64,000 nt of DNA from Sipunculus nudus (Eukaryota; Annelida; Sipuncula; Golfingiida; Sipunculidae), in contig CM049307.1 of assembly GCA_026874595.1 (NCBI GenBank), positions 18,267,079-18,331,078 of the forward strand. Direction: 5' to 3'. A model generated the notes under the pieces. That model searched no databases. It was not told where the DNA came from and saw only the letters and a list, made by a program, of their open reading frames with translations. The translations under genes and the position numbers were made by a program. How positions within the stretch are numbered: position 1 is the first letter of the stretch; every line of letters begins with the position of its first letter. Below, piece after piece: positions 24,861 through 59,866 of the stretch.

Positions 24861-27800
24861 ACAAGTGACCCATGGGTCACGGCGCTCAGCTGAAGCAAAA
24901 TATTCTATTGTTATGTTTTTCATATATATAACCATATGAGAAGCTAGGAGGAAAGGGGCCCTGCTACTTGGTTATAGCAAAGTTCTTAATATATATGACT
25001 GCAAAAAAAATACTGTGACAAGACTGTCATGAAGAAACACAGTTTTGAGATTCTGTGATGCATATGAAAAATTACAGATGGACCGGCAAGTGGACATGGA
25101 AGGATATAGAGACTAAATATGATAAAAAAACAGATCAGTTGTTTTGATATTAGGCAGCCTTGAAGTGTAACAATTGCTTTTGATGGAAAAAATAGGGTTT
25201 TTCTTAAAATCTCGAAGGAACGAAGTCCTAGTGACCAAATTTTTTATATGGGAGGAGATTTCGGGGACATCTAACTGTTTGCAATTTTGGATTCGTATGT
25301 CCAACGGTTTCAAAATGTGCCCTGTAAACAGCCGAACGGACGATGGACAAAGGAACACGACTATAGTTCAGATGACATATATTTTTTAAATTTGCAAAAA
25401 AATAAATATCTGAAAATAAAACTTAATTCAGGATTGGAAAAGTTGTATTCATTGGATCTGAAACAGAAATCAGTTCAAGAATGTAAGTAATGCAACATAT
25501 CTGGTTTGCGTGTGTGTTGGGGGGGGGGGGGGGGGGGCAGGGTTGCCACATGTGATTTTACATTTGTAAAAGCAGTGTTGCATCACTAATATGTTTACCC
25601 AGTGTACAAGGCTGTAGGGAACAGACATGGCTGGTCTGGAGGTTCAAAATGTAAATATATTAGAGCCTCAGAAAAACTTCAATAACTAGAATAATTTTGA
25701 GCCTTTTACTTTCAAATTTTCAGAATTTAACATATTATGTATTATAACTTATTATATATTAACATATTATAACATATCTATGTATTTGCATAATATGAAA
25801 GAAATCTGTCCATTAGTTTTTGACTTATAATGCTCACAGTACTGTCGAGTAGCAATTTTGGGGATATTAAACGGCATGAAAACAAGTAAAGAATAATAGG
25901 TGGCGCCACCACCTTTCTGGAACATGACAACCCTATCCATGATCTTCGATCAACTTGATTTTGGGATCAATCCATGCAAGTTTTCTTGAGATATTTAAGA
26001 ATTTGTGTGATTTTCCCCAAAATTGAACCTATTCAAGGTCAAGGTCACTCTCCTAGTTGAGGTCATGACCTCATTTTAAATAGGCGTCGTCCTCTCACCC
26101 ATATCTATACATATACCAAGTTTGGTAAAGATCCGTGAAATATTTTTTGAGTTATTGTGTCCAAAAGAAATCTCTGCAGCGGCGGCTGCATGACCGTGCC
26201 TAAACCATAGTATCTCCAGACTATGTCTGGCGATCGATTATTACAGATGCATATTGAATGCAAAATTGTAATACAGATACATCTCACTGATGGCAAAATC
26301 TTGAATTAATATGACTATGGATACCAATTATTTATAATCCATGTACAGCCGTCTTTATATACCCATAGACAGCTGTATACCTGTGATTGTAAACATTGCC
26401 TGGCATGAGGAATATCTAAAAATCATAAATCTACATTTTTTAAAAGCTTTTAAAAACATTCTTGTCAATATTAACCATAGATAACCTGAAATCTAAATGT
26501 CTGGAGGCATGATGTAATAAATGCTGATAAACTGGTGCCAGTCTAGATGTGTCTGCTTCACACAGCTAACATATATGGTAAAATGACTCAATTCAATCTT
26601 TATAATTCAGCCAAAATTAATTCTTTGGAACCATAAAAGACAATTATTAAAAGAATTTTTTCAGGGGATTATTCTTGTAAAATATTAAACAAATTGGCCT
26701 CAGTAGCATTAGTCAAAAAACGTTTTACAGGTTTATAACTCATATGGGAAAATACAGCAAAATGGCTAAGTTAAGCGTCCCATAACTCAGCCAAAAATCA
26801 CTGAACCAAAACCATTTGAACAAACTTGAATTATCATCATCTAAGGATAATTAATGTGTAAGATTTAATAATTTGGCCAAGTGGTTTTTGAGGAGGAGAT
26901 CTTTGTAGCCACTGAGCTAATATGGGCTGTTACAGCATATGACTAAATTTAGCTTCCCATAACTCAGCCATAAGTCACTGAACTGAGACCATTTGAACAA
27001 ACTTCAGAAAGCACTACCCTAGAATCATTTCTGTGCAATATTAAACTATTTGGCCATATGGTTTCAGAGAAGAAATTTTTTGTAGCCATCAGTATGATAC
27101 AGGCACTGATGACCCCCGTACAAAAAAAAGGCTGATGCAGGTGGCGCCACCAATACCTAAATTTCAGATATGTCTCATGTAAACAACATTGGCATAAAAT
27201 TTGGTGATGATAGCTCCAGCCATTTCTGAGATTGTAATTTAAGTATGCTTTTTTGGACAGATGACTAAGTTCAACTTACTGTAACCATTCGAACAAACTT
27301 CAGAAAGATTGTTCCAGGGATCATTTCTGTGAAATATTGGACAATTTGGCTGAACAGTTTCGTCGAAGAAGATTTTTAAAGCTTTTTTAGCTTTTTCCCT
27401 ATAAAATCTATGAAAATGCATTTAGCCAAAAAATAAGCAAAATCTGATATAGTTTTTTAGATGACTAATTTTTTGCATAAAATTTGGTGATGCTACCTCT
27501 TGCCGTTTTCAAGAGAGTATGGGTTAACGTACAGACGACTAACGACAGATGCCGCCACACCATCGCATAAGCTCACAGGTTCGCTAAAAAATTTAAAGAT
27601 TTTGACCTAATTTTTGGTATACAATTAAATTTTGATTAATTAAAATTGTATTACTGAAAAAAGTCCCTAGCTTTAACACTTTTTCTCTTGAGTGACCAAA
27701 TATCTTTCCTGATTTTTTACAAAGTTCATTATGTTTGGGCCCATAACTTTTTAAAATTTTATAATACTGACTTAATTTCTGGCATTTTCATAGGAACAAT

Positions 27801-28112
27801 ACAGAGGAATATTTATGGTAAAAATGAAGAAAACCAGGTGAGTGGTTTTGATATTAGACATTCCTGAAGTGTAAAAATAGATTGTTAATAAAAAAATTGA
27901 AGTTTTTCCTATATATCTCGAAGGAACTAAGTCCTATTTACCAAATTTATGGCATGGTAGATTTGCGGGACATCTAACTGTAAGCCGAATTTCAGATTCA
28001 TAGGTCCAATGGTGTCGAAACGCGCCAGTCTTACGGACGGACATCCGGACAGACAGACGGACAGACAACGGTCCATGACTATAGCTAAAATGACTTGTAG
28101 TCAGCTGAGCTA
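24861..28112 (+). mobile_element. Family A element, copy A2, inserted in family B sequence
   Basis: Left end ACAAGTGACCCATGGGTCAC, GGCGCTCAGCTGA; right end GACTATAGC..TAGTCAGCTGAGCTA. The host flanks CACACAACACAAAA and TGATTGTAGCTGACACC match the continuous sequence at 22631-22660. It contains a second partial terminus near 25340, a G19 run at 25519-25537, and family B material ending in CGCATAAGCTCACAGGTTCGCTA at 27586, so it is itself composite. No coding capacity was seen. Confidence 0.75.
25519..25537. repeat. G19 homopolymer
   Basis: Nineteen consecutive G after TGTGTGTT, inside family A copy A2. Confidence 0.95.
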
Positions 28113-29184
28113 ATGATTGTAGCTGACACCATCAGTCTTGTGTACAACGAAGCTATCAGAGATATATAAATATGCCAATTTTAGACTGATATTTCAAAAC
28201 CCTCCTGTAAAATAAGCAGGGCCATACACTGTGCAAAAACTATTTAAGGTGGCACCACCAGTTTTGTATATGACAAAGCTATCCGATATGTATAAATATG
28301 CCCAATTTCAGGCTGATATATCAAATTTCTTTGTAGAAATAAGCATGCACATGCACTGTGCAAAAGTCATTGAAGGTGGAGACACCAGTCTTGTGAAGAG
28401 AAAGCCATCAAAGACACATAGACAGGTCAAAATAACAGGCAAATACATCAAACTTACCTGGAGTCTGATGCACTGGGCTCACCAGGCTTAGGTGAGAAAA
28501 CAGTTTTGGAGAAGATTTTTAAAGGTTTTTAGTTTTTTTCCTATAAAATCCAAGTAAATGCAGATAGCAAAAAAAAGAAATAAAAAAATAAGCTGAATCC
28601 CACAACATTTGATATGTGACAGATTATTGCATTAAATATAGCGATGTTAGCTCCTGCTATTCCTGAGAAATTATGGGTTAATGTACAGATGACTGATGAC
28701 CCCTGTACAAAAAAGGTCAATGCAGGTGGCGCCACTAATTGAATTTCATATATGACTCATGTGACCAACACTGGCAAAATTTGGTGATGATAGCTCAGGC
28801 TGTTTCTGAGATTGTCCTTTTAGTATGCTTTTTTGGACAGATGACTGAGTTCAACTTCCTGTAACTTAGCTAAAATTCACTGAACTTTGTCCATTCAAAC
28901 AAACTTGACAGAGAAGGTATAAGAGATTATTTCTGTGAAATATTGAACAATTTGGCTGGACCGTTTCAGAGGAGAAGATTTTAAAAGGCTTTTTAGCTTT
29001 TTCCCTATAAAATCTAGGAAAATGCAGTTAGCCAAAAAATAAGCACAATCCGATATAGTTTTTTAGATGACTAATTTTTTGCATAAAATTTCGTGATGCT
29101 ACCTCTTGCCGTTTTCAAGATAGTATGGGTTAACGTACAGACGACAGACGCCGCCACACCATCGCATTAGCTCACAGGTTCCCA
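28113..29184 (+). mobile_element. Right part of an interrupted family B element
   Basis: Continues the family B interior interrupted by A2 (ACACCATCAGTCTTGTGTAC, CACTGTGCAAAA, near-palindromic GGTGGCACCACC) and ends in a degenerate right end, GCATTAGCTCACAGGTTCCCA. Its left part is probably the stretch 24806-24860 and sequence near 22349. Confidence 0.55.
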
Positions 29185-29340
29185 AAAAATATTATCATCT
29201 GAGAGAAAATATCTGACTGGACACAGAAAACTTATTCAAAGCCATTTAATAAATGCAATTTCCATTTACAATGCAGATGTAGTATAATAACTGATATAAT
29301 AACAATTGAATAGAGCCACACAAGCAGAAATGTCATTTAT

Positions 29341-29344
<4 letters not shown>

Positions 29345-29412
<68 letters not shown>
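29345..29412. repeat. (AT)n microsatellite
   Basis: Thirty-four uninterrupted AT dinucleotides; the longest AT array in the window. Confidence 0.97.
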
Positions 29413-29415
<3 letters not shown>

Positions 29416-30299
29416 ACAATAGATCTACAGTATGTCTTATCATCAGAAAAAAACAATGTGAAATGTGGCTGTTCATCATGAGAAAATATTGAATTCTTGT
29501 GTAACCAATACATTTTTTTATTAATTTTATTTTTACTGGATGACTTAAATGTAATCTGCATAACTGTCCTGAACCTGGTATATGTATATTAATAAATTAA
29601 TGCTTCACTTGGTTTTAATTAGATAGTAAATATAAGGAAAATGTACAGGAATTAAACAACTGTCTTTAAATTTTCTGACAGTACAACTACATTAATAGCA
29701 GAGGTTACATTGTACATACGATTTAAAACTGTACAACACAACCCTACGTATTACGGCCATTCTTTTACACTTACAACTGATACATTTTACATAGATTTCT
29801 TTGTGAACCCAATTTTTAAGTCTTTTTATCCATGATATTACTGTAACTGTACCAGTTTTTGCAACAGACAAGTCACTAAATGTTTAAACAACAAGACTGC
29901 ATGTTGTGACACAGAAATGGTACAATTCCCATTATGTTCATGTACGGCTTAACTTTCTTTAAACAGAATTTTACATTTATTCTACTTGTCACTATTGGAA
30001 ACACTGATTTTATTTTTATAATCAACACTTTGTAACACTGAATTTTACAGGTTATACTTGGTAACACTGATTCTGACACACTGCACTTTTTGAGACAGAT
30101 TTTTACACAATGCAAATTCTGTAAAACATATATTTTTAGTGAGTACCAATAAATGTAATCAAAATGGTGGTTTTTAGTAGGTTAATTGCTATTTTTCACT
30201 AATTTAGTCACACAGTCTATTTTGCAAATTACAGCTTTTAAAATTCCACTCTCTTAAACTGGAGCATGTCTTCTTGCAGAAGAATACGCTGTTTGATGT
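29413..30299 (-). other. CHTF18: 3' region of CHTF18
   Basis: Downstream of the CHTF18 stop on the - strand and AT-rich. Several TTTATT words on the + strand (for example near 30010) are AATAAA on the gene strand and could be polyadenylation signals, so part of this is presumably 3' UTR. The exact end cannot be set. Confidence 0.4.
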
Positions 30300-30397
30300 T
30301 CACATCAAATCCTGAATCCTGACGGTCTTACGTACAGCATTTGTGAAACCCTCCTTGAAATGGAACCAAATCTCAGTGTTGATCTCCTTCTTTGGCT
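30300..30397 (-). CDS. CHTF18: CHTF18 (CTF18) last coding exon
   Basis: CTF18 is the large AAA+ subunit of the Ctf18-RFC clamp loader, which acts with PCNA in nuclear DNA replication and sister-chromatid cohesion. Only its C-terminal tail is in this window. After the acceptor CATTTCAG the exon reads (E)PKKEINTE, IWFHFKEGFTNAVRKTV, RIQDLM and TGA. As I know the family, vertebrate CTF18 ends in a closely similar motif (a W-F-x-F-x-EG-x-x-NAVR core and a terminal R-x-x-I-x-DLL), the segment reported to bind the Ctf8-Dcc1 partners. The two leading bases complete a Glu with the single base left by exon 36848-36917. Motif, phase and termination agree. Confidence 0.92.
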
Positions 30398-30824
30398 CTG
30401 AAATGAAAAGGAAAAGAAAATGCAGAGGAATTCCATAAGTTAACCAGTTATTAGAGCCAGAGACTCATTTGTTATCACTGTTTATCTTCATTATGAAAGC
30501 TGCTAGCTGTGCCTTCCTGTTGTTTTTGGGAAGGCTTGGACTTTGTCATTTCACTTATCACGATGGTGCCATAACACTGAATAATACAATAGCAAACTGA
30601 ATTTTAGGGTAAAAACTCAGGATCACTAAATCCTGATATGATTATCAACATTAGTAATGGTTATAAAATTAATTTCTGAAAAGACATCAGGAAGTAATTT
30701 ACAATTGCTAGATATTTACTCAGGGCACACCAGATTTGATTCCTATGACATGAATGGTTACCCTAACTGTTTAGACCTGACACAAAAGCCTATGTCCATG
30801 ACTCTGCTTTTCATACCTCCTATT

Positions 30825-31480: not shown

Positions 31481-31689
31481 CCCTAGATGGTCATAGTCAT
31501 ACCTCAGACATAACATTCTAAGCACACCCTGCTCCTACCTTTGACATGGAAGGGGGTATCACATGAATGACAACAACCAAAACAGATAATCAGTAGCAGC
31601 CTGAGTGTAGAAGATAGTGAGTTTGTTTGTTGTTTTTGTAGTTTGTATAATTACACAAGTGGTATAAATACTCAGACCTATAAACAAAA

Positions 31690-36917: not shown

Positions 36918-36939
36918 CTGAAATGAAAAAAAAACAAAA

Positions 36940-39376
36940 ACTAGATGTGTCGGAACGACACAAATGCCCCCGCCTTGGGCAAATTAGAAACATTTGTAAA
37001 ATTTGGAAAATTTTTTAAGTTCAGGAGGTGTCCTATGGTCAAAAGTAGGTCAACAAGGGCAAAATGCAAACTCGATCTGTAACAGGTCATTATCAAGCAA
37101 CACACCAAAAATCATGCCAGTATATGCAGGTATTGTGAAAAAAAGTCCATACATGTGCATTTTCCATAAAAATTTGTCTTTCATGAAATTTTCTATGTTT
37201 AGGAGCCGTAAAACAATCAAAAGTAGGTCAACCGGGATGAAACGCAAACTCGATCTGTAACTGTCATTATCTGCCCACACAAAAAAAATCAGGGTGGTAT
37301 CTGCAGGCATTGAGGAGAAAAAGTCAGTACATATGCATTTGTTATGAAAATTTCTATTTTTCATGAAACTTTCTATGTTCAGGAGCAGTCAAATGGTCAA
37401 AAGTAGGTCAACTGGGACAAAACAAAAACTCGATCTGTAACTGGTCATTATCTGCCCACACACCAAAAATCAGGCCCGTATCTGCAGGCACTGCGAAAAA
37501 AAGTCCATACATGTGCACCTTTTTATGAAATTTTCTATGTTAGAGCACCGTCAAACGGTCAAAAATAGGTCAACTGGGACAAAACGTGAACTTGATCTGT
37601 AACTGGTCATTATCTGCCCACACACCAAAAAATCAGGCCAAAATCTGCAGGTATTGTGAAGAAAAGTCTGTACAAGTGTATTTGTCATGAAAATATATAT
37701 TTTACATGAAATTTTCTATGTTTAGGAGCCGTAAAACAGTCAAAAGTAGGTCAACCGGGACGAAATGCGAACTCCATCTGTAACTGGTCAATATCTGCCA
37801 ACACACCAAAAATCAGGCCAATATCTGCAGGCATTGCAGAAAAAGTCCATACATGTGTATTTGTCATGAAATTTCATATTTTTCATGAAATTTTCTATGT
37901 TCAGGAGCCGTAAAACGGTCAAAAGTAGGTCAACCAGGATGAAACGCGAACCCAATCTGGAACTGGTCTATATCTGCCCACACACCAAAAATTAGGCCAA
38001 TATCTGCAGGCATTGCAAAAAAAGTCTGTACATGTGTATCTGTCATGAATATTTCTATTTTTCATGAAATTTCCTAAGTTTAGGAGCCGTAAAACGGTCA
38101 AAAGTAGGTCAACCGGGACGAAACGTGAACTCGATCTGTAACTGGTCTATATCTGCCCACACACCAAAAATCAGGCCAATATCTGCAGGCATTGCGAAAA
38201 AAAATCCGTTCATGTGTATCTGTCATGAATATTTCTATTTTTCATGAAAATTTCTAAGTTTAGGAGCCGTAAAACGGTCAAAAGTTGGTCAACCCGGACG
38301 AAACGCCAACTCGATCTGTAACTGGTCTATATCTGTCCACACACCAAAAATCAGGCCAATATCTGTAGGCACTGCGAAAAAAAATCCGTACATGTATATT
38401 TGTCATGAAATTTCTTTTTTTTTTTAAATTTTCTATGTTCAGGAGCCGTAAAACGGTCAAAAGTAGGTCAACCAGGACGAAACGCAAACTCGATCTGAAA
38501 CTGGTCTATATCTACTTGCACACCAAAAATCAGTCCAATATCTTTAGGCATTGCTAAAAAAAGTCTGTACATGTGTATCTGTCATGAATATTTCTATTTT
38601 TCATGAAATTTTCTAAGTTAAGGAGCCGTAAAACGGTCAAAAGTTGGTCAACCGGGACGAAACGCGAACTCGATCTGTAACTGGTCCATATCTGCCCACA
38701 CACCATAAATCAGGCCAATATCTGCAGGCATTGCGAAAAAAAGTCCGTACATGTGTATCTGTCATGAATATTTCTATTTTTCATGAAAATTTCTAAGTTT
38801 AGGAGCCATAGAACGATCAAAAGTAGGTCAACCAGGACGAAACGCCAACTTGATCTGTAACTGGTCTATATCTGTCCACACACCAAAAATCAGGCCAATA
38901 TCTGCAGGCACTGCGAAAAAAAGTCTGTACATGTGTATTTGTCATGAAATTTCACATTTTTCATGAAATTTTCTATGTTCAGGAGCCGTAAAACGGTCAA
39001 AAGTAAATCAACCAGGACGAAACGCAAACTCGATCTGTAACTGGTCTATATCTGCTCACACACCAAAAATCAGGCCAATATCTGCAGGCATTGCGAAAAA
39101 AAGTCCGTACATGTGTATCTGTCGTGAATATTTCTATTTTTCATGAAATTTTCTAAGTTTAGGAGCCGTAAAACGGTCAAAAGTAGGTCAACCGGGACGA
39201 AACGCGAACTCGATCTGTAACTGGTCTATATCTGCCCACACACCAAAAATCAGGCCAATATCTGCAGGCATTGCGAAAAAAAGTCCGTACAACTGTTTGA
39301 TTTCGGAATGACGGAAGGACGGAATGACGGACATGGGTAAAACTATATGCCCCGGCCACTTTGTGGCGGGGGCATA
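36940..39376 (+). mobile_element. Family D element
   Basis: Left end ACTAGATGTGTCGGAACGAC ACA (an arm of TGTGTCG..CGACACA), then ATGCCCCCGCC. Right end TGACGGACATGGG, then GGCGGGGGCATA and an A-run. The 11-bp ATGCCCCCGCC is the exact reverse complement of GGCGGGGGCAT at the right end. The body is a tandem array of ~180-bp units. No coding capacity; - strand open frames over the array are repeat shadows. Confidence 0.85.
37037..39290 (+). repeat. Thirteen ~180-bp tandem repeats in family D
   Basis: The word (G)GTCAAAAGTAGGTCAAC or a close variant starts at 37037, 37216, 37395, 37557, 37738, 37917, 38096, 38276, 38455, 38635, 38815, 38995 and 39175. Spacing is 179-181 except one 162-base unit. 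Units from about 38100 rightward are more alike than the left ones, suggesting recent homogenisation on the right side. Confidence 0.95.
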
Positions 39377-40440
39377 AAAACACACAGCCTCAATAAAACA
39401 TGAAATTTTCATTTTAAGTAACTTGACCCCCACCCCTTTTTCAGCCGGCACAACCTTTTATAAAGGGTTTCAGACCAATATTAGTTACCTGGACCCCCTT
39501 TTTATTAGGCCATGAGATCTTTCTTCCAAAAGGGAGGGGGAGAGATCCAGAAACACCCCCATCCCCTCCCCACCGCATCCACTTTTCTACCAACAAGGCA
39601 TGCATATTCCCATTTCATTCTGTTGGAAAAACTTCCTTGCCGGTAAACATACATTAAAATAATCTTTCATATCTTCCTTACATCAATCTTGTCTTTATAC
39701 ATCAAACATTAACTAGAAAACTGACAGGTCAGGAAGGGCCCTGCAAAAGATGCAGTCATTATAAACTGAAGTACTGTGAATTTGTTGTACTTTCGTAGCA
39801 TGGGCTGATAGAGTGATATTTGAAAATTTAAGAACCTGTAAAGAACAGCTGACATGTATAAAGAAAATATATGGTAAAGTGAAAATGTTCAAAGCTATCA
39901 AACTAATGATATAAAAGAACTGCATGCATTTTTAGTTTCTGTATTTGTGTATTACCTGTGCCAATTATTCTTGGTTTAAGTCTTGGCTGGGCTGTGTCAA
40001 ATATTTTTCCAGTATTTGTATGTTGAATTGGCCATATTATATGTGAGGCTTAAGTCTGTACATGAACCTTGTAGTATAAGAGAGAGTCAGTTGCTGGTTA
40101 GTAGTGATAAAATGGTCATTCTCTTGAACTGAGATTTAGCTGTTTTTTGGCTTGGGTCTACAGATGCGCTGTGTTGTGTAGAATGACTACATATGAATAT
40201 CAATGTAAATTTGTTGATGGTCACTATAAAAGGTCCAAATTCCTTGAGATGTTGGATGTGGAGATTTGGTCTAAATAAGAGCCACCGTGGTGCGTTGGGC
40301 CAGTGTATTCTTTTCTGGGGAATCTTCAAATTGTCTGTACAAAATATGCTGTGAAAATGTAATGCCACTGTACACGAGTGACTCGAAAAAGATTCATCCA
40401 TTTCTGTCCTGCTGAAGGAGACACCAGCAACTGAACACCA
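39377..40440. other. CHTF18 intron, unclassified
   Basis: Low-complexity C-rich patch at 39420-39590, then AT-rich sequence. A 104-codon - strand frame (40401-40087) has no recognisable features. No exon called. Confidence 0.4.
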
Positions 40441-41359: not shown

Positions 41360-41827
41360 ACAAGGCCCAAAGGCCTAATGTGAATCTGTGCATGGAGTAT
41401 GGATGGATGTTTATTTTTTAAATTTAGTATTGATACTTTTATGTCCTGCATATTTACTTTAGTCACTATGATTTCAGCCAAATGGACATTTAGGATCTGC
41501 TTGTTTTGGACTAAGACATTTTAAAACTAGGATGTATCAGTCAGGATATTTCCAATATGTCATTTTTGCCAGGGAGGATTATTGGGACAGATGAACAGAC
41601 AATGTGGCAGCATGGTTTTGGAGAAGAACATGTTAAAAATTTTTTTTTAGATTTTTCCCTATAAAATCTAAGAAAATGCAGTTAGCCAGGAATTAAGCAA
41701 AATCAGAATTTTTCAGATGACTAACCTTTTGCAAAAACTTTGGTGTTGCTAGCTCCTGCCCTTTTTGAGATAGCTATGAAGCACGGCGGAAGACGCCACA
41801 CCATCGCATAAGCTCACACATTCGCTA
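41360..41827 (+). mobile_element. Short family B element
   Basis: Left end ACAAGGCCCAAAGGCCTAAT, then GTGAATCTGTGC. Right end CCATCGCATAAGCTCACACATTCGCTA followed by an A-run. Only 468 bases, keeping the GAGAAG..TTTTTCCCTATAAAATC module of larger copies. It begins within about 30 bases of the family C terminus. Confidence 0.75.
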
Positions 41828-42235
41828 AAAAAGCAAACCAAGTTTTTTCAAACAGTTGAAAGATTTGTCCACTAGTTCTAATCTGGGCATTCTGCATCTA
41901 GATGATGTGTCTAGACATCTAGACACATTGTTTTAGACGCCAGCCAGAGCCAGGTCAGTTGCCATGGTGATGTCTGGACCTCACCTTGTTGAACTGATTG
42001 ACCTCTTGACTTGGCATGTTGAAACTTGGCATGTTGTAAAATCTGTTTTCAAACACTGAAAGCTTTTTTCATTTGGCTACACTGCTTTTTTAAAGCTGCC
42101 TTTACCCAATTTATTCTTATAAAAAACTTATAGAACCCTACCATAGAATAATTTGTAAAGTTTAAACCAATCAGCTTAACAGTTTCACCATAAAACAGTG
42201 TATAAGCCAGAAGAGTGTAAAATTACATTACATTA

Positions 42236-43795
42236 AAACATCTGAGCTACTGTGATGCATATAAAAAATTTACAGATGGACAGGCAAGTGGACAGAATGG
42301 ACTGATACCTTTATTTCACTTTCAGGGGAATTATGCATTTAAGTTTATATTAAACCCTATTTTTTTTTAATATCCACTTTTCCATTAATAGTTTTTATCA
42401 GATGCATTTTTTTTAATTTACAAGTTTAATAAATTTGTAATGAAAAATCTGAAAATTTAAGTTAAAATATCAGAACTGTAAGTTATTTATCCAGAATTTA
42501 GCTCACATCAGGTCATATTATGCATACACATATTTTATCATTTCTAAATCACTAATGTTTAAAGTGAATTTAAAAGGTAACAATGCAGTAACATGGCATC
42601 TTCAAGATTATTCCTTGAATCAAAATTAAAAAGTTTTGTACATTGGAGTTTTCAGTACATGCTTTTATTCACTAAAATAAAAGATTCAGTAAATTTGATA
42701 AAATAAAAACATCTTTTCAAATGAAGTAAACACACTGTTGGTTGAATGGACAAACAATATCATTATGCTAATTACTATTTCAGCTATAATTTGTTACTGG
42801 AATTAATATTAAATTTAACACCTGGTGAAGTTTTATTCTTCTGAAGTAAGGAATGCCTTATCTGATGAACATCCAAACTTTCATAGCAAAATACCACTTT
42901 GTGGACACAATTAAATGTGCACTTTGATCATTGTAACCCTGATTAAATGTAGCAACTGCCTAGAAACAGAATGAATCAATTACAGAAAATTATAACATTC
43001 AACTAGTTTATGCAGGGGGTGCAGGGAAGAGGGGAAGCCTGCCAAGAGGGGAAGCTGGCCAAGCTGAGCCAAGGCAAGCTGCCTGGAGTGGGTTACATAA
43101 CACAGATGAAGGCTGTACTAGGTGGGCTTGATGTAAACAACACTTGACATGGTGTATGAAAACTTGAATAAATGTTACTCTTTTCAGTCAATTCCCTTGA
43201 AACTTCAGATTTAAAAGATTAAATCCTTATGTGTATATGCTGTGAAAATTAAATTAATAGTGCTCACAGGGAAAAAAGTGCCGTGGTCAAAGTTTGACAA
43301 ATTTAAGGTATTAATTTTTTATTTATGCTAATAACTTAAAAAATTTGCAAAATTCAGATCTAATTTTGGGTATACAATTGGATCTTAATTAAATGTAGTA
43401 ATATCCAAGATAAAAGTCTCTAGCTTCAGCAATTCTCATGTTAAGTAATGTGAGTAAATATATTTCCCAATTTTTAAAAAGTTCATTATGTTTGGGCCCA
43501 TAACTTCAAGAAATAAAGCAATACTGACCTAAAATATTATCAAAAACAGATCAGTGGTATGATATAAGGCAGTCCTGTTGGTGTAACAATGGGTTTATAA
43601 TGAAAACAGATGTTTTTCCTTTATATCTTGAAGGAACGAAGTCCTAGTGACCCTATTTTTGGCATGGTAGAAGAATTTCGGGACATCTCACTGCATGCAA
43701 ATTTTGGAATGGTAGGTCCAATGGTTTTAAAATGTGCCCTGTTAATGTATGACGGACAAAGGACCATGACTATAGCTCATATGACAGCTGAGCTA
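42236..43795 (+). mobile_element. 5'-truncated family A element
   Basis: Begins inside the family (GATGGACAGGCAAGTGGACA, as at 12540) and carries the GAGGGGAAGCCTGCC module, TTATGTTTGGGCCCATAACT and the right end ACTATAGCTC..CAGCTGAGCTA. The ACAAGGGACC left end is absent. Confidence 0.7.
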
Positions 43796-44246
43796 AAAAC
43801 TGTAAAAATATTTGTACATAGCTTATTGAGACAGTATCCCAGTGAAAATATATATTTTATTTTAATATTTAGAATACAAGTGACCCATGGGTCATGGTGC
43901 TAGGCTGACTGACATGTTGACAATATGTCCTTGCACAGGCAACTAATTAAGATAATGTAGGTGGCATTTTGTTCATGCATATAAGCTTAAGTCCATCAAG
44001 ACCCATAGGCACACCAAATCTGATGACAATCGAACCAGCCTTTCCTGAGGAATCTGGCAATTTGTGTATTTTGCTTTATTTCTTGGGTTTTTGAACTTAC
44101 CCTGAAACTCAAAGAATAAAGGTCACAGTGACCCAATTTCAGGTTTCTGGGGAGAACTTTTGAGGAACTCTCAGGATGATAGGTTAGAAGATTCTGGGTC
44201 AAATGGTTTTGATTTGTGCCCTTCTTTGGTATCAAATTTTCAATTA

Positions 44247-44489
44247 GGGGGCCTGGACAGCTTAGTGGTAAAACGCTTGGCTGTCTCCGCTGGTGACCCG
44301 GGTTCAATCCCCTGCATGGCTAAGAGAGTGGGTTGTAGTTGCCCATCCAAGGCTGGTGGTTTTCTCTGGGTTCTACGGTTTCCTCCACCTATACAGTCTA
44401 CTGAAAGACACAATCTGAACCAGGGAGAGTCCGCGATTAGTTATAATTACTATTTGTACAATCCATGTACAATCCATGTAAAATTAATA

Positions 44490-44541: not shown

Positions 44542-44551
<10 letters not shown>

Positions 44552-46469: not shown

Positions 46470-47560
46470 CTCTACTGACCCAAACAACCAACCTGATCTA
46501 TGAAACCAAACAACCCACATGATCTAAGGATCCAAACAACCCACCTGCTGTGGAAACAAACAACCCACCTGATCTGTTGACCCCAACAAGCCACCTGATC
46601 TGTGGAACCAAACAACTTATCTGATCTGTGGAACTTAACAACCTGTCTGTTCTGTGGAACCAATCAACCCACCTGCTTTGCCAAACCAATCGACCCACCT
46701 GATCGGTGAAAACAACTGACCTGATTTGTGAACCCAAACAACTGACCTGATCTGTGAAACCAAACAACTGACCTGATTTGTGAAACCAAACAACTGACCT
46801 GATTTGTAAAACCAAACAAATGACCTGATTTGTGAAACCAAACAACTGACCTGATCTGTGAAACCAAACAACTGACCTGATCTGTGAAACCAAACAACTG
46901 ACCTGACCTGTGAAACCAAACATCTGACCTGATCTGTGAAACCAAACAACTGACCTGATTTGTGAAACCAAACAACTGACCTGATTTGTGAAACCAAACA
47001 ACTGACCTGATCTGTGAAACCAAATAACTGACCTGATCTGGTAAACCAAACAACTGACCTGATCTGTGAAACCAAACAACTGACCTGATCTGTGGAACCA
47101 AGCAACCTGTCTGATCTGAGGAACCAAACAACCAACCTGCTCTGTGGAAGAAAGCAACCTGTGGGACCTGAAGAACCAAACAACCTGTCTGATCTGTAGA
47201 AGCAAGCAACCTTTCTGACCTGAGGAACCAAACAACCCGTCTTATCTGTGGAACCAAACAACCCACCTGATCTGTGGAACCAAGCAATCTGTCTGATCTG
47301 TGGTATCAAACAACCTTCCTATGAGGAACCAAACAACACATCTGACCTGTGGAACCAAACAACCCACCTGATTGGTGGAACCAAACAACCTACGTGATCT
47401 ATGGAACCAAACAACCCACCTGATCTGAGGAACCAAACAACCCACCTGGTCTTCGGAACCAAACGACCCACCTGCTCTGAGGAACCAAACAACCAACCTG
47501 CTCTGTGGAATTATACAACCAACCTGCTCTGTGGAACCAAACAGCTTCAAAAAGCAGGAA
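46470..47560 (-). repeat. 26-bp minisatellite, about 40 copies
   Basis: Tandem units of GAAACCAAACAACTGACCTG plus ATCTGT, nearly identical at 46730-47100 and more varied outside. Since 26 is not a multiple of three, successive units rotate through the frames. With no stop in the unit on the - strand, all three - strand frames stay open for over 200 codons (peptide unit VSCLVSQIRSVVWFH..). I take these as artefacts, not genes. Confidence 0.95.
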
Positions 47561-48489: not shown

Positions 48490-49113
48490 ACAAGGGACCC
48501 ATGGGTCACATCGCTCAGCTGAATTTTGGAAAATATTAGTAACTGCAAAATATTTTTAATTCTTTTGGTTTTTCATGTATATTATCATTATAAAAGCTAT
48601 GAGAAAATGGCCCTGCTAAAATGAAACTGTAAATTATAGAATAATGGACATGAGCTAAACCATTTAGTGATGCACCAAGGGAACAAATAGGCCTACGGTA
48701 AGTGTAATATTAAAGTAACATTTCATAAACAAATAATGTGTGAAGGTAATTAAGTTTTCAAAAGTTAAATATATGGCCATATGAGTTAACAAGGGACCCA
48801 TGGGTCATGGCGCTCAGCTGTTCTATATGATAAAAAATATGATTTAGGAAAGAGGCACATGCTTGTTTTGTGTGGTAATAAATATAAGCTTTATTATGAG
48901 TTGTTGGTGTTTAGCTTATGTATGATTTTGATAGTATCTTTGGAGACTGGGAAGAGGATTTATTTCATTTATTTTATTAACAAATGGAGTGCTATTGTCA
49001 CACAGATTTTGACTTGGCCATATAACTTATAAGCAGCACATATGATAAAAGAGTTTTACTATTTATTAAAATTTAATAACAAATATTGTGCCAATATAAT
49101 TTTTATTAAAAAA

Positions 49114-51017
49114 ACAAGGGACCTATGGGTCACTATGCTCAGCTGAAGATGACCTTGAAGGTAAAAATCTAAAATAATATCAAATGGTTATGCTGTGTAA
49201 GAGGAAGAGATAATAAAGGCCATGGTTGGTTTATATGATTGTTTTGTATTGATGAGCAAGAAATTGTTGCAAATAATATTTTGTGACCTAACCATGTGTT
49301 TCCTAATGTTGAAATTGAAGCATGTGAGCAGTTTGTGAACAAATGATCTGTAATATTACCATGATCATTAGTTGGCTTTTTGATTAACTGTTGACATTTC
49401 AGTAGTTTACACATTTGTTCAATTGAATCTATTTTTTGTATAATATATATTATTAAATATAAATGTATTTTTTTAATGAAATTTATACAGTTGAAATATA
49501 ACTAATTAACAACATAAAACAGGGCAAACAAAGCCTGATCTCAAATTCTGCTGAGGCAGGAAAATAATGAACAATTGTTTGTATTAAATCCTCATTTTTT
49601 TATTACATCAATTTTTTTTATTATAAGTTTATATTTCTATACATTTCCAATATAACATATATATCCGAATATAAAAGTTGATTCATAATTCTTAATTGCA
49701 TCATCATAAATCTCAATCTTGTCAGATAACACCACATCATGCATACAAATGTTTATTTATTTTTTACCACAAAAATATATCTTTTAAATCTGCAAAACAA
49801 TAAATATCTTAAAATAATACTTGATTTAGATTTCACAATTTTTAAATGTGTCTTTATTTATCCATAATGTGCTTCATATTTTATAAATTTAAGCATACTG
49901 ATGGGTTCAATTATATTTGTTAAAATCATTTAAAAGAAAATTGATTTATTCAAAAATGCCACATTACACAACATTGCATCTTCTGGATTACACCTTGAAT
50001 TACCTTTTCAAGGAAAGTTTTTGCATATCAGAGTGGAAACAGCATTACAATGAAGGAGATACAGTGAAAACAATAACAATTACTGCATAACACTTGGTGG
50101 GTTGGGTTTGCGGGGGGTGGGGGGGTGGGGGGGGGGGGGTGATTGGGATGGTGATATGAGAATAACTGTACACCTGTCACAGCAGAGGATCTCCCCAAGT
50201 GACTGTAACAAATCAGAAACCCTGGCATAGCTGACTTCCATTGACCTTGAGTGGGACCCTGCATTTGTAATCTGTAATCAAAGCAAATGACTACAACAGA
50301 GCCTCAAGAAAAAATCAATAAATAGCCTTATTTTCAAGCTTTTATTTTCAACTTTCAGATTTAAACAAATTAAATATTTATGTTTACATGCTGTGAAAAT
50401 TAAATCATTGGTACTAACAGAAAAAAAACGTGCCATGGTCAAAGTTGGGCAAAATTTAAGGTACTGATTTTATTTTTATGCAAATAACTTAAAAAATTTA
50501 CAAAATTCAGATTTAATTTTGGGTAAACAATTGAATCTTAATTAAACATAGTAATATACTTGGGAAAATAGACTCTAGTTTCAAAATTTTTCATGTTAAG
50601 TGAGTTAATATTTTTCCTGATTTTTTACAAAATCCATTATGTTTGGGCCCATAACTTAAAGAATTTATACTTAACAGACTTAATTTCTGGCATGTACATA
50701 GAAACTATATAGAGGAATATTTATGGTAAATATGAGGAAAAACATATGAGTGGTTTTGATATTAGGCAGTCCTGAAGTTTGAAAGTAGGTTTTTAATAAA
50801 AAATTGAGGTTTTTCCTTAATTTCTCAAAGGAACGAATTCGCAAAGACCCAGTTTTCGGCTTGGCAGGAGATCTTGGGGACATCTAACATTATGCTGAAT
50901 TTTGGATTCCTAGGTCTTACGGTTTCAAAACGTGCCACATCTACAGACTGACGGACGAACGGACGATGGACAATGGACCACGACTATAGCTCAGATGACT
51001 TATAGTCAGCTGAGCTA
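49114..51017 (+). mobile_element. Family A element A6, nested in A5
   Basis: Left end ACAAGGGACCTATGGGTCAC, TATGCTCAGCTGA. Right end TAGTCAGCTGAGCTA. The interrupted A5 sequence TTTTTATTAAAAA / ATAATAAGAAAATCATATG is continuous in A8 at 57567-57597. It carries the G-run module at 50112-50139 and one ~620-bp unit. Confidence 0.8.
50112..50139. repeat. G-rich tract in A6
   Basis: Runs of 6, 7 and 13 G separated by single T (and GT) bases; G-quadruplex-capable. Confidence 0.9.
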
Positions 51018-53751
51018 ATAATAAGAAAATCATATGATTTTTTAAAATAAAATATAACTGAAATGATTATTGAAATAATATTATAGAATATATTCATGAA
51101 TGCATTCATGAATGAAAGTATCTGCACTGGTATTCAAATACTTTCATTTTTACCTGAATCCCATTCTTATGCAAAAAAATTTTTTAATGCAGTACATATT
51201 CATATTTGTATTCAAATACATTTGCAAAGCATTCGCACCATGTCTAGTATTTATTTAGTTTTAGCCAAACAAAGATGTTGAGAATCCAGAATATACAAAA
51301 TTCACAAATTTAAATAATGATCATAAGTACCTGGTTTTATGGCTTTTATTTATATTTAAAAAAAATAAATGTAATATATTCACTTTGGACTACTTTCACA
51401 TCAATCTACACACTAGACACAGTAGGAATCTAGATTAATATTATCAACTGCATCTTTGTCTATCATTAATTTCCTTCATATGATCCCTAATGATTAGTAA
51501 TAAATAATATGATTTATTTTTTTTATCATTAAAATTTCACTGAAAAATACCATAGGTGACTGCATGGTGTTATTTGGAATAACATTGACATTGACATTCT
51601 ATCCATCCATACAAGATTCTTACATCATCAGTAACTGCAAGTTAATTTTCTGTTACTCATCAACTAACAAATTCCTTTTCTATTAATTTTTCTTTAATTT
51701 GTTATAAAAAAAACAAAACAAAATTATTAATTTATTGTTTATTGTTATGTTGTTTTTCAAAACAACTACTAGATGAGTTGGGTTGGACACATGGATCAAC
51801 TGTGGCTGGGCATTAGCTGCCTGGCTGCCCCAGTGTATGCTTCGCTCAAGCATGCATAATCTGATGAAAGGTCAACAAGGTCAACATACAGGTGACTGAA
51901 GAGGGGCTGGATTAAGCCTGGGTGTGACATGGTCTCATATAAACATTAATAAAAGCTACAATATTTGCCCAATTTCTTTCAGCTTTCTAAACTACAAAGA
52001 TGAAATCCTTATGTGTGCATGATATGAAAATTATATCAACAGTGCTCTCAGGAAACAAAGGTGCCATGGTCAAAGTTGGGCAAAATTTAAGGTACTAATT
52101 TTTTATTTATACTAATAACTTATAAAATTTGAAAAATTCAGAACTAATTTTTGGTATTCAATTGAATCTTGATTAAATAATGTTACATCCCTGACAAAAA
52201 AATCTCTAGCTTCAGCAATCCTCTTGTTAAGGGAGTAAATATATTTCTTGATTTTTTAAAAAGTGCATTATGTTTGGGCCCATAACTTAAAACAATTACG
52301 CAATACTGACATCATTTCTGGCATGTGCATAGCAAATGTATAGAAAAATATGTATATTATATAAAATCAAAGTCAGATCAGTGGTTTTGATATTAGGCAG
52401 TCTTACAGTGAAACAATGAGTTTTAATGGAAAAATGAAGTTTTTCATTAATATTTCGAAGGAATGAAGTCCTAGTGATAAAATTCTTGGCATGGCAGGGG
52501 ATTTTGGAGACATCTAACTGTATGCTAAATTTAAGGAACTTAGAGCTGAAGCTGGGGAGCTGAGCTCTAGCAAACTGCATAACACTAGCTTGATGTTAAC
52601 TTGATGTGACATGGTGCTTGAAAACTTGAATAAAATCTACAGTTTTTGATCAACTGGTTTCAATTTTTTGGTGTTAACAGTTGAAATGCTGCCAAAAACA
52701 TGCTGTGAAAATTAAATCCACAGTACTTACAGGAAAAAAACGTGCCATGGTCAAACTTGGGCAAAATTTAAGGTACCAATTTTATATTTTTGCCAATATT
52801 TAAAAAAATTTAACAGATTTTGATATAATTTTTGGTATACAATTAAATTTTGATCAATTAAAGTTGTATTACTGAAAAAAAGTCCCTACCTTTAACACTT
52901 TTGGTCTTAAGTGACCAAATATCTTTCCTGATTTTTTACAAAGTCCATTATGTTTGGGCCCATAACTTTTTTAAATTTAGTAATACTGACTTAATTTCTT
53001 GCATGTACATAGGAACTATATAGAGGAATATTTATGGTAAATATGAAGAAAACCAGATGAGTGATTTTGATATTAGGCAGTCCTGAATTGTGAAAATAGA
53101 TTTCTAATAAAAAACTGAGGTTTTTCCTTAATATCTCGAAGGAACGAAGTCCTATTGACCCAATTTTCGGCATGGTAGGAGATTTTTGGGACATCTAACT
53201 GTACGGCAAATTTCAGATTCGTAGGTCCAATGGTGTCGAAACGTGCCAGTTGGACAGACTGCCAGACGGACAGATGGACGGACGACGGACAATGGACCAC
53301 GACTATAGCTCAGATGACTTATAGTCAGCTGAGCCAAAAATTAATCCAACAAAGTTTGACCAATATTCCTAATTTTAATACTAAGTTAACAGTGTTATTC
53401 ACACCTAGGCCCTGCCAACTTTAAGAGATATGAATGAAATGCTACAAAGTATTTATATCTTCTTAAATCTTGTCAGTTAGCACTTACATTAGATCCTAAT
53501 ATTTTATCACATTTGAATATTAGGATTAAATTCCTGAATTTTTTTTCTTTTAAACAATCAAAATTGTCCAAGTCTCATCAAAAAGAATTTATTTAACATT
53601 AAAATTATAAGATTCATCTTGTTTATTAGTCCTGTGTATTGAAGGGGTGGGTGGGGGGAGGGGTCTCCGTTGTTACTGCTCGTTGCTGAAAAAAATGTTA
53701 ATTTTAAGATTCATCTAGTTCATAGTACAGGTCTGTCAACAGAATGGGGGT

Positions 53752-53769
53752 GGGGGGGGGGGGGGGGGG
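53752..53769. repeat. G18 homopolymer in A4
   Basis: Eighteen G preceded by GGGGGT and followed by AGCGGGGG, at the family's usual G-run position. Confidence 0.95.
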
Positions 53770-54042
53770 AGCGGGGGTTACCAGAGAAAAAGGCTCCCTG
53801 TGGTATGGTATTAACTGCAGACAGCCTGATCAAGCTCAACTCAGTGGAGAGAGCTGCACTGTATGACCTACAGTCACCAAAGTGGACTGCTTGACAATGT
53901 AAGGGAATACAATAAGAGTCTTCAAAATAAATTAAATTACTAGCCTAATTTTGCAGCTTTTATTTTCAAATTTCAGATTTTAACAGATAAAATCCTTATG
54001 TGCACATGCTGTGAAAATTAAATTCCACAGTACTTACAGGAA

Positions 54043-57000
54043 ACAAGGGACCCATGGGTCACGGCGCTCAGCTGATCGTGATTGGACTATAAATGTTTCT
54101 CCACTGTGATACTATATCGAGTCAATAAAGCTTATGAATATCATGTACATGTTAGGCTATTATAAAGGAATGTAATGTAATATGTGAGTAAATGATAAAT
54201 GAAATTACCTGACTGATGGACTAATAGAGTCAAATAAAGTGGTTTATTTTTTATTTATTTAGGAGGGGTTGAAAATGTGATATATTTGAGCAAATATGAA
54301 TGCAATGACAGCAGTAATAAGCAGTAGTAGAATGATGATAAGGCTATTTGTTGAAGGATCTAAAGTGTATGGTAGTCTGCAAGCGTTCAATTTGACAGAT
54401 ATGATGTTATGATTAACTATGCTGATGAAGTGATTTATGAATATGTGACTGTATGACACAATATCTCTTTAGTCTTGACAAGGTACATTATTGTGATGCC
54501 CACTATGTCTACATATTACACAATATTGACATAATTTCTGGCATGTACATAGGTACCTATGGACGAATAGTTATACAAAATATTAAAGTATGAATATATC
54601 TGATTCATCTTGTTCTTGCTTACTGAGGCTGACTTTGGGATGGGGTTCGGAGAAGGGAAAAGTGAGGGCAGCACGAAGGTGGATGTAGAAATATTCTATT
54701 GTAATGTTTTTCATTTATATAAGAATATGAAAAGCCAAGAGTCAAGGGGCCCTCCTACTTGGTTATAGTAAAGTTCTAAATATATGATTGCAAACTAATA
54801 CTCTGACAAGACTTTCATGAAGAAAAACAGTAAAAGTTTTGAGATACTGTGTTGCATACGAAAATTTATAGTTGGACAGGCAAGTGGACAGAATAGACTA
54901 ATACCTTTATTTCACTTTCAAGAGAATAATGCATTTAAGTTTAAATATAATCCTATTTTTTTAAGCAGATCCACTTTTTCCATTAAGAAGTTTTTATCTG
55001 AATCATTTTTTTTATTTACAGGTTTATAAATTTTTAATTAAAAAACCTGAAAATAAAAGTTAAAATATTAGAATTGTTGCAAAAGTTGCAATCATTATAT
55101 ATACATAGTAAAAAACATTGGGTCATATTATGCATACACATATATTTTATTATTTTTAAATCATAAATGTTTAAACTGATTTTAAAAGAAAATAATGCCA
55201 CAACATGGCATCTACAAGAATATTCCTTGAATCACTATTAAAAAGTTTTGCACATTGGAGTTTTCAGGACATGCTTAATTTTATTCACCAAAATAAAATA
55301 AAAGTAAATTTGATAAAATAAAACATCTTTTCAAATAAAGTATACACACTGTTGGTTGAATGAGGGACAAACAATATCATTGTGCTAATTACTATCCCAG
55401 TTTTAATTAATTACTGGATTTAATAGTCAATTTCACACCTGGTGAAGTTTTTACTCTTCTGAAGTAAGGAATTACTTATCTCATGAACATCCACACTTTC
55501 ACAGCAATACACCACTTTGTGGACACAATTAAATGTACACTTTAATCATTGTAACCCTGGTGGTACAATACAAAATCTAAAATGTAGCATGTCCAAGAAT
55601 AAAATAAAATACGGAAAAATTATAACATTCATCTAGTTTATGCACCAGCTGGGGGGGGATAAGTGCAGGGCAAAGGGGAAGCCTGCTAGTAGTGGCCAAG
55701 CTGGGCCAAGGTAAGCTGCCTGGGGTGGGTTACATAATGCAAGTGAAGGCTGTACTACTAGGTGGGCTAGATGTAAACAACAATTGACATGGTGTATGAA
55801 AACATGAATAAAAGCTATTCATTCCAATCAATTTCTTTTGAATGTTCAGATTTTAAAAGATTAAATCCTTATGCATATATGCTGGGAAAATTAAATCAAC
55901 AGTGCCAAAGTTGGACAAAATTTAAGATATTGATTTTTTATTTATGCTAATAACTTGAAAAATTTGCAAAATTCAGATCTAATTTTGGGTAAACAATTGA
56001 ATCTTGATTAAATAAAGTTATATTCCTGAAAAAAAGTCTCTAGGTTCAGCAATTCTCATGTTAGGTGAGTAAATATATTTCCTGATTTTTTAAAAAATTG
56101 CATTATGTTTTGGCCCATAACTTCAAAATAATACCCAATACTGACCTAATTTTTGGTATGTTCATAGAAAATGTATAAAAGAATGTGATTACTAAATACG
56201 ATCAAAAACAGATCAGTGGTTTTGATATTAGGCAGCCTTGAAGTGTAACAATGGCTTTTTTTTTATGGAAAACAGAGTTTTTTTCCTTAATATCTCGAAG
56301 GAACAAAGTCCTAATGACTGAATTTTCGGTATGGTAGGAGATTTTGGGGACATCTAAAATTATGTCAACAGCCTGGGGAGCATAGAGATGTGCACTGAAT
56401 GACCTACAGTCATCAAAGTGGACTGCCTGACAATGTAAGGGAATACAACAAGAGCCTCCAAAAAAATTCAATTAATAGCCTAATTTTGCAGCTTTTATTT
56501 TCAAATTTCAGATTTTAACAGATTAAATCCTTATGTATACATGGTGTGAAAATTAAATCCACAGTACTTACAGGAAAAAAACGTGCCATGGCCAAAGTTG
56601 GGCAAAATTTAAGGTACCAATTTTATATTTTTGCCAATATTTAAAAAAAAATTTACAAATTTTGATCTAATTTTTGGTATACAATTAAATTTTTATTAAT
56701 TAAAGTTGTATTACTGAAAAAAAAGTCCCTACCTTTAACACTTTTGGTCTTAAGTGACCAAATATCTTCCTGATTTTTTTACAAAGTCCATTATGTTTGG
56801 GCCCATTACTTTTTTAAATTATATAATACTGACTTAATATCTGGCATGTACATAGGAACTATATAGAGGAATATTTATGGTAAATATGAAGAAATCCAGA
56901 TGAGTGGTTTTGATATTAGGCAGTCCTGAAGTGTGAAAATCGATTTCTAATAAAAAATTGAGGTTTTTCCTTAATATCTCAAAGGAACGAAGTCCTATTG

Positions 57001-57183
57001 ACCCAATTTTTGGCATGGTAGGAGATTATGGGGACAACTAACTGTATGCCAAAATTCAGATTCGTAGGTCCAACGGTGTCGAAACGTGCCAGTCTTACGG
57101 ACGGACATCCAGACGGACAGACGGACGGACGACGGACAATGGACCATGACTATAGCTCAGATGACTTATAGTCAGCTGAGCTA
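54043..57183 (+). mobile_element. Family A element A7, nested in A4
   Basis: Left end ACAAGGGACCCATGGGTCAC, GGCGCTCAGCTGA. Right end TAGTCAGCTGAGCTA. It interrupts A4 inside ..CTTACAGGAA / AAAAACGTGC.., a string that is continuous at 52731, 56571 and 59261. It has the G-run module (55651-55658) and two ~620-bp units. Confidence 0.82.
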
Positions 57184-57251
57184 AAAAACGTGCTGTGGCC
57201 AAAGTTGGGCAAAATTTAAGGTACCAATTTTTATTTTTGCTAATATTTTAA

Positions 57252-59866
57252 ACAAGGGACCTATGGGTCACGACGCTCAGCTGTTATATATGGTAAAAAA
57301 ATATTATTTAGAAATGAGGCACATGCTGGTTTTGTGTGGTAATAAATATAAGCTGTATTATGAGTTGTTGTTGTTTAGCTTATGTATGATTTTGATAGTA
57401 CCTTTGGAGACAGGGAAGAAGATTGATTTCATTTATTTTATTAACAATTGGAGAACTATTGTCACACAGATTTTGACTTGGCCATATAACTTATAAGCAG
57501 AACATATAATATAAGAGTTTAACTATTTATTAAAAAAATTACAAATATTGTCCCAAATATAATTTTTATTAAAAATAATAAGAGAATCATATGATTTTTT
57601 TAAATGAAATATAACTGATATGATTATTAAAATAATATTAAAGAATATATTCATGAATGCATTCATGAATACATTTTGAAAGTATTTGCACGAGTATTCA
57701 TATACTTTCATTTTTACCTGAATTCCCATTCTTTATGCAAGAAATTTTATAATGGAGTACATAATCATATTCGTATTTAAATACAATTACAAAGTATTCG
57801 TTCTATGTCTGGTATTTATTCAATTTTCACCAAACAATGATGTTGAGAATCCAGAATATACATAATTCACACATTTAAATAATGATCATAAGTACCTGGT
57901 TTTATGGCTTTTATTTATATTAAAAACTAACTGTAAAAAATTCATTTTGGACTAATTTCACATCAATGTACACACTAGACACAGTAGGAATCTAGATTAA
58001 TATTATCAACTGCATCTTTGTCTATCATTAATTTCCTTCATATGATCCCTAATGATTAGTAATGAATAATATGATTTACTTCTTTATCATTAAAATTGAA
58101 CTGAAAAATGCCATAGGTGACTGCATGGTGTTATTTGGAACATGTGACATTCTACCCATCGACACAAGATTCTTATATCATCAGTAACTGCAAGTTTATT
58201 TCCTGTTATTATAAACTAACAAATTCCTTTTCTATTTTTCTTTAATTTGTTATTATAAACCAATAAAAATTTATTAATTTGTTGTTTATTGTTATGTTGT
58301 TGGTTAAAACTACTAGATGAGTTGGGTTGGACACCTGGATCAACTGTGGCTGGCCATAAGCTGCCTGGATTCCTGTATGCCTCGCCTCAAGCGTGCATAA
58401 TTTGATGAAAGGTCAACAAGGTCAACATACAGGTGACTCAAGAGGGGCTGGAGAGAGCCAAAGTCTGACAGGGTCTCATAAAAAACATTAATAAAAGCTA
58501 CGATTTTTTGGCCAATTTCTTTCAGCTTTCTAAATTAAAAAGCTGAAATCCTTATGTGTGCATGATATGAAAATTATATCAACAGTGCTCACGTGAAACA
58601 AACGTGCCATGGTCACAGTTGGGCAAAATTTAAGGTACTAATTTTATATTTATACTAATAACTTATAAAATTTGAAAAATTCAGAACTAATTTTTGGTAT
58701 TCAATTGAATCTTGATTAAATAATGTTACATCCCTGACAAAAAAATCTCTAGCAATGCCCTTGTTAAGGGAGTAAATATATTTCTTGATTTTTTACAAAG
58801 TGCATTATGTTTGGGCCCATAACTTAAAACAATTACGCAATACTGACATCATTCTGGGATGTGCATAGAGAATGAAAAATATGTATATTGTTTATGATTA
58901 AAGTCAGATCAGTGGTTTTGATATTAGGCAGTCTTGAAGTGTAACAATGGGTTTTTAATGGAAAAATGAAGTTTTTCATTAATATCTCGAAGGTATTAAG
59001 TCCTAGTGACCAAATTCTTGGCATGGTAGGGGATTTTGGAGACATCTAACTGTATGCTGAATTTAAGGAACTTAGAGCTGAAGCTGGGGAGCTGAGCTTT
59101 TGCAAACTGCATAACACTAGCTTGATGTAAACAATATGTTACAAGGTGCTTGAAAACTTGATTAAAATCTACAGTTTTTGATCAACTGGTTTCAAATTTT
59201 TGGTGTTAACAGTTGAAATGCTGCCAAAACATGCTGTGAAAATTAAATCCACAGTACTTACAGGAAAAAAACGTGCCATGGTCAAAGTTGGGCAAAATTT
59301 AAGGTACCAATTTTTTATTTTTATTAATATTTTAAAAAATTTAAAAGATTTTCATCTAATTTTGGGTATACAATTTAATTTTGATTAATTAAAGTTATAT
59401 TACTGGAAAAAAGATCCACAGCTTTAACATTTTTTGTGTTAAGTGATCAAATCTTTCCTTATTTTTTTCAAATGCATTATGTTTGGGCCCAGAACTTTTT
59501 TCAATTAAATAATACAGACATAATTTCTGGCATGTACATAGGAACTATATAGAGGAATATTTATGGTAAATATGAGGAAAAACAGATGAGTGGTTTTGAT
59601 ATTAGGCAGTCCTAAAGTGTTAAAATAGGTTTTTAATAAAAAATTGAGGTTTTTCCTTAATTTCTCAAAGGAACGAAGTTGCAAAGACCCAGTTTTCGGC
59701 TTGGTAGGAGATCTTGGGGACATCTAACATAATGCCGAATTTTGGATTCCTAGGTCTTACGGTTTCAAAACGTGCCACATCTACGGACGGACGGACGGAC
59801 GGACAGACGGACAGACGGACAATGGACCACGACTATAGCTCAAATGACTTATAGTCAGCTGAGCTA
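57252..59866 (+). mobile_element. Family A element A8, nested in A4
   Basis: Left end ACAAGGGACCTATGGGTCAC, GACGCTCAGCTG. Right end TAGTCAGCTGAGCTA. It interrupts A4 inside AATATTTTAA / AAAATTTAAAAGATTTT, which is continuous at 59327-59350. Nearly full collinearity with A5 shows that the two are recent relatives, and it supplies the unfilled reference for A6. Confidence 0.82.

Follow-up and report, generated by a model that had tools for sequence, protein, structure and literature searches.

Repeats inserted into T-runs of the Sipunculus nudus genome as probable non-autonomous Helitron2-group elements

How does a family of repeats come to lie inside runs of a single base without duplicating its target? 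The question is raised by a stretch of 64,000 nucleotides of the Sipunculus nudus genome (assembly GCA_026874595.1, contig CM049307.1, positions 18,267,079 to 18,331,078), here called the window. On the minus strand the element reads TAGCTCAGCTGACTATAAGTCATCTGAGCTA...TCAGCTGAGCGCCGTGACCCATGGGTCCCTTGT, and the runs of A around it become runs of T. With a probability of roughly 0.93, we consider these repeats to be non-autonomous rolling-circle elements of the Helitron2 group (HINE-type), which would use a Rep-helicase in trans and are joined into the target after the fourth T of a run (T4^T) without duplication.

Insertion sites and boundaries of the element

Of the copies in the window, seven have both ends, and the ends of the five between 48490 and 60478 pair like nested parentheses (the termini of A8 are listed last):

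12310..14455, minus strand: family copy of 2146 bp with a diverged 3' end
24861..28112, minus strand: copy A2, 3252 bp, which contains other repeats; the paralogue at 22591-22700 is empty
48490..60478, minus strand: outermost nested copy, its ends paired as parentheses; interrupted by four copies of the same family (48789-53336, 49114-51017 nested within it, 54043-57183 and 57252-59866)
48789..53336, minus strand: nested copy, 4548 bp including A6
49114..51017, minus strand: copy A6, 1904 bp, flanked by 1+6 T where most empty paralogues have 5
54043..57183, minus strand: copy A7, 3141 bp, flanked by 5+2 T where the nearest empty paralogue has 7
57252..59866, minus strand: copy A8, 2615 bp, flanked by 4+2 T where the empty site has 6; a 2625-bp copy in locus L015 is 95% identical to it over the full length
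59836..59866, minus strand: 5' terminus of A8, where the inverted repeat and its complement form a predicted 5' hairpin (folding energy of 45 nt with RNA parameters: -15.1 kcal/mol)
57252..57284, minus strand: 3' terminus of A8, made up of the inverted repeat, the palindrome GACCCATRGGTC and the final TTGT, in this order

The sequence-only reading of the window had proposed insertion without target duplication from four comparisons of filled and empty sites, and its counts are reproduced. Counted as A, copy A7 splits a run into 2+5 = 7, and the intact runs at 56575-56581 and 59265-59271 hold 7. A8 (2+4 = 6) compares with 6 at 59334-59339, which had been placed one base off, at 59333, and A2 (4+1 = 5) with 5 at 22641-22645. 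A6 (6+1 = 7) faces an intact run of 5 at 57571-57575.

Adding five insertions outside the window brings the total to nine. The number of T is unchanged in seven: A8, A7, A2 (1+4 T on the minus strand, 5 empty), L001 (4+3 T against 7), L020 (4+2 T against 6 in L010), C1:5715511-5717216 (4+1 T against 5) and C1:132565-135509 (4+1 T against 5, in a pair that is only 75% identical). The other two, A6 (1+6 against 5) and L015 (4+4 against 6), gain two T, and duplications of any other kind were not seen in the nine pairs. A gain such as that in A6, which had been described as the one mismatch, is thus a recurring minor outcome. T-runs differ among paralogues, so that single-base differences weigh little: in L020 the total is one above the 5 T of the nearest paralogue, L016, and A6 exceeds one L013 paralogue by one T and most other paralogues shown by two.

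The joined flanks in the first comparison set match one contiguous paralogue over 110-250 bp, hence the pairing is not due to chance. Among 27 paired copies, 8 had a paralogue spanning the junction at E 1e-10, of which L005 (gapped) was dropped; at the laxer E 1e-4 a match to L007 was also obtained for the L002 copy, whose 3' end is poor, and this copy was left unused. Ten flank pairs were also fetched and gave two usable comparisons, C1:333829-337334 being dropped as a mosaic and seven having no two-sided paralogue. L001 and A8 share a host position and are possibly not fully independent. Assigning the four T to the element was considered and rejected: there are 5-7 T in the empty sites of the comparisons, and the totals do not rise by four. 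Hence the T were present before insertion.

The genome as a whole specifies the target. At up to 3 mismatches, the 5' end is found 12,519 + 12,689 = 25,208 times in the 1.43-Gb genome, and a backward control gives 0. When 27-base 5' ends are matched exactly and a base other than T is required at -8, 9,289 are found, of which 6,153 have exactly four T before them. Among the first 100 matches listed, the run before the 5' end counts 0 T in 2, 1 in 5, 2 in 1, 3 in 2, 4 in 69, 5 in 11, 6 in 8 and 7 in 2, which is four or more in 90/100; where it is exactly four, the preceding base is A in 53/69. A T directly follows 97 of 100 listed exact 3' ends, drawn from the 1,881 that have a base other than T at +3. 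The sampled sequences, from which 5 ends whose terminal letters had changed were excluded, show exactly four T before 19/27 5' ends (the background there, for T-runs preceding any T, being 1.4%) and a T after 35/40 3' ends, against 36% after any TTGT. The target is four T followed by T (T4^T), and the flanking T are split asymmetrically, mostly with four before the element and usually one or more after it. The earlier description of a site between two identical A is right as to T^T insertion and understates the actual site.

The element is a coherent mobile unit, with 5' TAGC, 3' TTGT and the fuller minus-strand layout TAGCTCAGCTGACTATAAGTCATCTGAGCTATAGTC...(GTCC/GTCT)n...TCAGCTGAGCGCCGTGACCCATGGGTCCCTTGT. 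Four copies from different places, 2651, 2625, 2615 and 2606 bp long, are 91-96% identical over their whole length and have precise limits on both sides; a second size group of 1.75-1.9 kb shows 81-89% identity. In the window copies a 5' inverted repeat starts 1 nt from the 5' end and is part of a hairpin, predicted at -8.9 to -17.3 kcal/mol (RNA parameters) in 7/7 copies. The 3' inverted repeat lies 23 bp from the 3' end and precedes a palindrome, GACCCATGGGTC in its intact form. The inverted repeats are asymmetric and subterminal, and the layout is that of a HINE: left subterminal inverted repeat (subTIR), inverted repeat (IR) and GTCC/GTCT microsatellite, then right subTIR and palindrome.

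A further copy of the family lies at about 42230-43795 of the window (5' end, on the minus strand, at about 43795; 78% like 54827-56355), and its 3' end was not recognised. For a lone family 3' terminus at 43876..43908 (minus strand), a search that allowed up to 5 mismatches gave no 5' counterpart.

Head-to-tail joins

At 91 places in the genome, only 0-9 bases separate a 3' end from the 5' start that follows it, and the genome-wide pattern search returned 0 tail-to-tail joins. The spacer is absent or consists only of T in 76/91 (T 25, TTT 19, none 14, TT 7, TTTT 6, TTTTT 4, seven T 1). Over half of the joins do not have the four T typical of ordinary insertions: at most two T precede the 5' end in 50/91 joins against 8/100 ordinary 5' ends (Fisher p 6e-13, the two sets being drawn with different patterns).

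These numbers may suggest that the joins have two sources. The cut in this Helentron-type family would be fixed at four T from the 5' edge of the T-run, not placed indiscriminately; some joins would then be insertions that obey the rule beside an older copy, and those with 0-1 T, which break it, would record joined-end (rolling-circle or circular) intermediates. We give this combined proposal about even odds. More generally, joins with at most two T may be end-joined products of rolling-circle replication. A rival account, in which every join comes from a fresh insertion into the T-run next to a copy already present and is uninformative on replication, would explain the 23/91 joins with exactly four T (counting the T of TTGT), as predicted by the target rule, and the orientation of the T-run alone would favour head-to-tail joins and account for the missing tail-to-tail ones. 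It appears unlikely in view of the excess of joins with at most two T.

An identical TAT spacer occurs in the joins at C6:4068758 and C6:4070091, which lie 1,333 bp apart, probably in a tandem array of the family.

Class of element and the search for an autonomous partner

The termini and the T^T insertion differ from those of canonical Helitrons (Helitron1), which have 5' TC, 3' CTRR and insertion at A^T. Neither the fixed target-site duplication (TSD) nor the terminal inverted repeats of DNA transposons and miniature inverted-repeat transposable elements (MITEs) are seen. The family does show the features of Helitron2: a 5' inverted repeat 0-2 bp from the end and within a hairpin, a 3' inverted repeat some 20-30 bp from the end and before a hairpin, and insertion at TTTT^T/C without TSD. 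The Helitron2/Helentron interpretation offered by the sequence-only reading is thus supported by T^T insertion without duplication beyond the noise in T number, by the 5' hairpin with asymmetric subterminal repeats, by the 3' palindrome and by the head-to-tail joins. The same features argue, as had been claimed, against transposons that make TSDs and against short interspersed nuclear elements (SINEs).

A cut-and-paste MITE whose TA or TT duplication is hidden in the T-runs could explain the two insertions with two extra T as TT duplications; it is very improbable, since seven of nine insertions show no extra base, the inverted repeats are asymmetric and subterminal, and 91 head-to-tail joins stand against 0 tail-to-tail. 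Even less credible is a retroposon (a SINE or a derivative of a long interspersed nuclear element) placed by an L1-like endonuclease, with the A-run of the other strand as its tail: T4^T does resemble the L1 endonuclease site 5'-TTTTT/AA-3' (in the passage cited from PMC8565326), but none of the 9 pairs shows a long TSD, both ends are precise in the four 2.6-kb copies, and the T-run already exists in the empty site.

For the Helitron2-group reading, the kind of mechanism is well supported. A Rep-helicase supplied in trans would recognise both subterminal inverted repeats, which are asymmetric, together with their hairpins, and copy out one strand; this strand would be joined into a T-run after its fourth T, leaving the target unduplicated. 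Occasionally the copying may run past the 3' end, or the ends may be joined to each other, which would yield head-to-tail copies. Circular or single-strand intermediates are plausible on this scheme, and mobilisation is presumably due to one of the Helentron-type proteins of the genome.

Such proteins exist. Pfam PF14214 (Helitron_like_N) identifies 143 places in the genome, from 150 scored of 195 candidates. Motif 2 was found by pattern in 27 of 30 fetched Rep loci, 25 with G-S-P, which is the Helentron signature (PMC4067079, passage on motif 2), one with G-L-P and one with G-W-P. One Rep locus has an open frame of 2235 amino acids, the scanned parts of which (L024, L051) contain DUF6570, OTU, Rep, PIF1 and Exo_endo_phos domains; Rep, PIF1 and Exo_endo_phos are thus encoded in one open reading frame (ORF). 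L024 (C11:50383793-50387404) together with L051 presents a Helentron-type protein with DUF6570 and an OTU protease before Rep and Exo_endo_phos at the C-terminus.

Several observations speak against the proposed class. Besides the two insertions with additional T, there is the weakness of the predicted 3' folds, which vary between copies. A Rep-helicase gene between family ends, the partner that the sequence-only reading proposed to look for, was not found in a partial search: Rep-helicase-endonuclease proteins are present in the genome, and none was linked to the family ends. These ends are absent within 1.5 kb of 30 Rep matches, with only the 9-base CAGCTGAGC inside 8 loci, and from 8 kb downstream of one Rep locus and 3-kb stretches upstream of six; the fetched set covers 30 of the 143 Rep places and, of the other 113, short upstream stretches of two. 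Remnants of the genome's Rep-helicase proteins gave no match at E 1e-3 in 21 sequences holding family copies. Six ORFs of at least 110 amino acids in the 27 paired copies and three window ORFs of 99-103 amino acids matched no Pfam family above cut-off, the sole weak match being N6_N4_Mtase (E 0.25). Since no autonomous partner with the family ends is at hand, Helentrons proper and other Helitron2 elements are not distinguishable here.

Other repeats occur in the window. A second HINE-like family (36940-39378) has a 5' ATGCCCCCGCC inverted repeat, an IR, a short GGAC-type microsatellite, a tandem array of about 180 bp and a 3' GGCGGGGGCAT with the palindrome TGTCGTTCCGACACA, and lies between A-runs. 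One Rep gene (L048/L055) has an element of this second family, about 1.7 kb as judged by hand, immediately upstream on the opposite strand; this element was taken for a neighbour, not a partner. Members of a third family (24467-24809, 27258-27590, 28838-29190, 41598-41831) are 73-83% alike and end in ...AAGCTCACAGGTTCGCTAA or similar before A-runs, possibly as another rolling-circle family. A tRNA-like stretch with a GGTTCAATCC box at about 44247-44420 looks like a SINE by eye, and 46480-47543 is a minisatellite of 26 bp in about 41 copies.

Comparison with known systems

As in Helitron2 (Bao & Jurka, 2013, PMC3627910), the 5' inverted repeat lies 0-2 bp from the 5' T within a hairpin, and the one on the 3' side, at a distance of about 20-30 bp from the end, is directly followed by a hairpin; as in Helitron-1N1_CRe of the same paper, insertion takes place between TTTT and T/C without TSD. 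In contrast, the related CRe-1/2/3 insertions are mostly 5'-truncated with TSDs of about 7-19 bp, which are not seen in our 9 pairs, and, unlike for the Helitron2 of that paper, a partner of the S. nudus family was not identified. Anatomy and T4^T site are already published for Helitron2 (PMC3627910; PMC5148889); the family itself is a new and abundant member.

FoHeli, the Helitron2 of Fusarium (PMC5148889), has similar termini. FoHeli1 and FoHeli2 differ from the present family in that their Rep-Hel proteins are known and that they insert after TNAT (before T according to the legend, before A according to the text). Joined ends of FoHeli1 were detected by polymerase chain reaction (PMC5148889), and the joins described here yield a testable prediction on end-joined intermediates. 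Autonomous partners of Helentrons carry a C-terminal AP endonuclease; such a protein is present in S. nudus, in fetched stretches without the family ends.

By description, not by sequence, the family resembles Cg_HINE of the Pacific oyster (PMC7492417), with 5' subTIR, IR and GTCY/GTCC microsatellite, 3' subTIR and palindrome, and T-rich insertion sites without TSD. Unlike Cg_HINE with its satellite-like arrays, the window copies contain only short arrays according to Tandem Repeats Finder (e.g. 177 bp x 1.9 in A2).

HINE and DINE-1, the non-autonomous Helentrons of Thomas et al. (2014, PMC4067079), share the subTIRs, the short IR near the 5' subTIR, the 3' palindrome, the T-rich target without modification and a T number that varies between some copies. 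The 3' subTIR lies 23 bp from the end here, against 38-60 bp in mite HINEs, and the sharp four-T rule contrasts with the indiscriminate cutting between T proposed for HINE. In the passage concerned, Thomas et al. leave unclear whether flanking T are split symmetrically. The asymmetric split found here bears on that question, and with about 25,000 5' ends this abundant family offers extensive natural evidence on how Helitron2/Helentron elements select their targets and join them.

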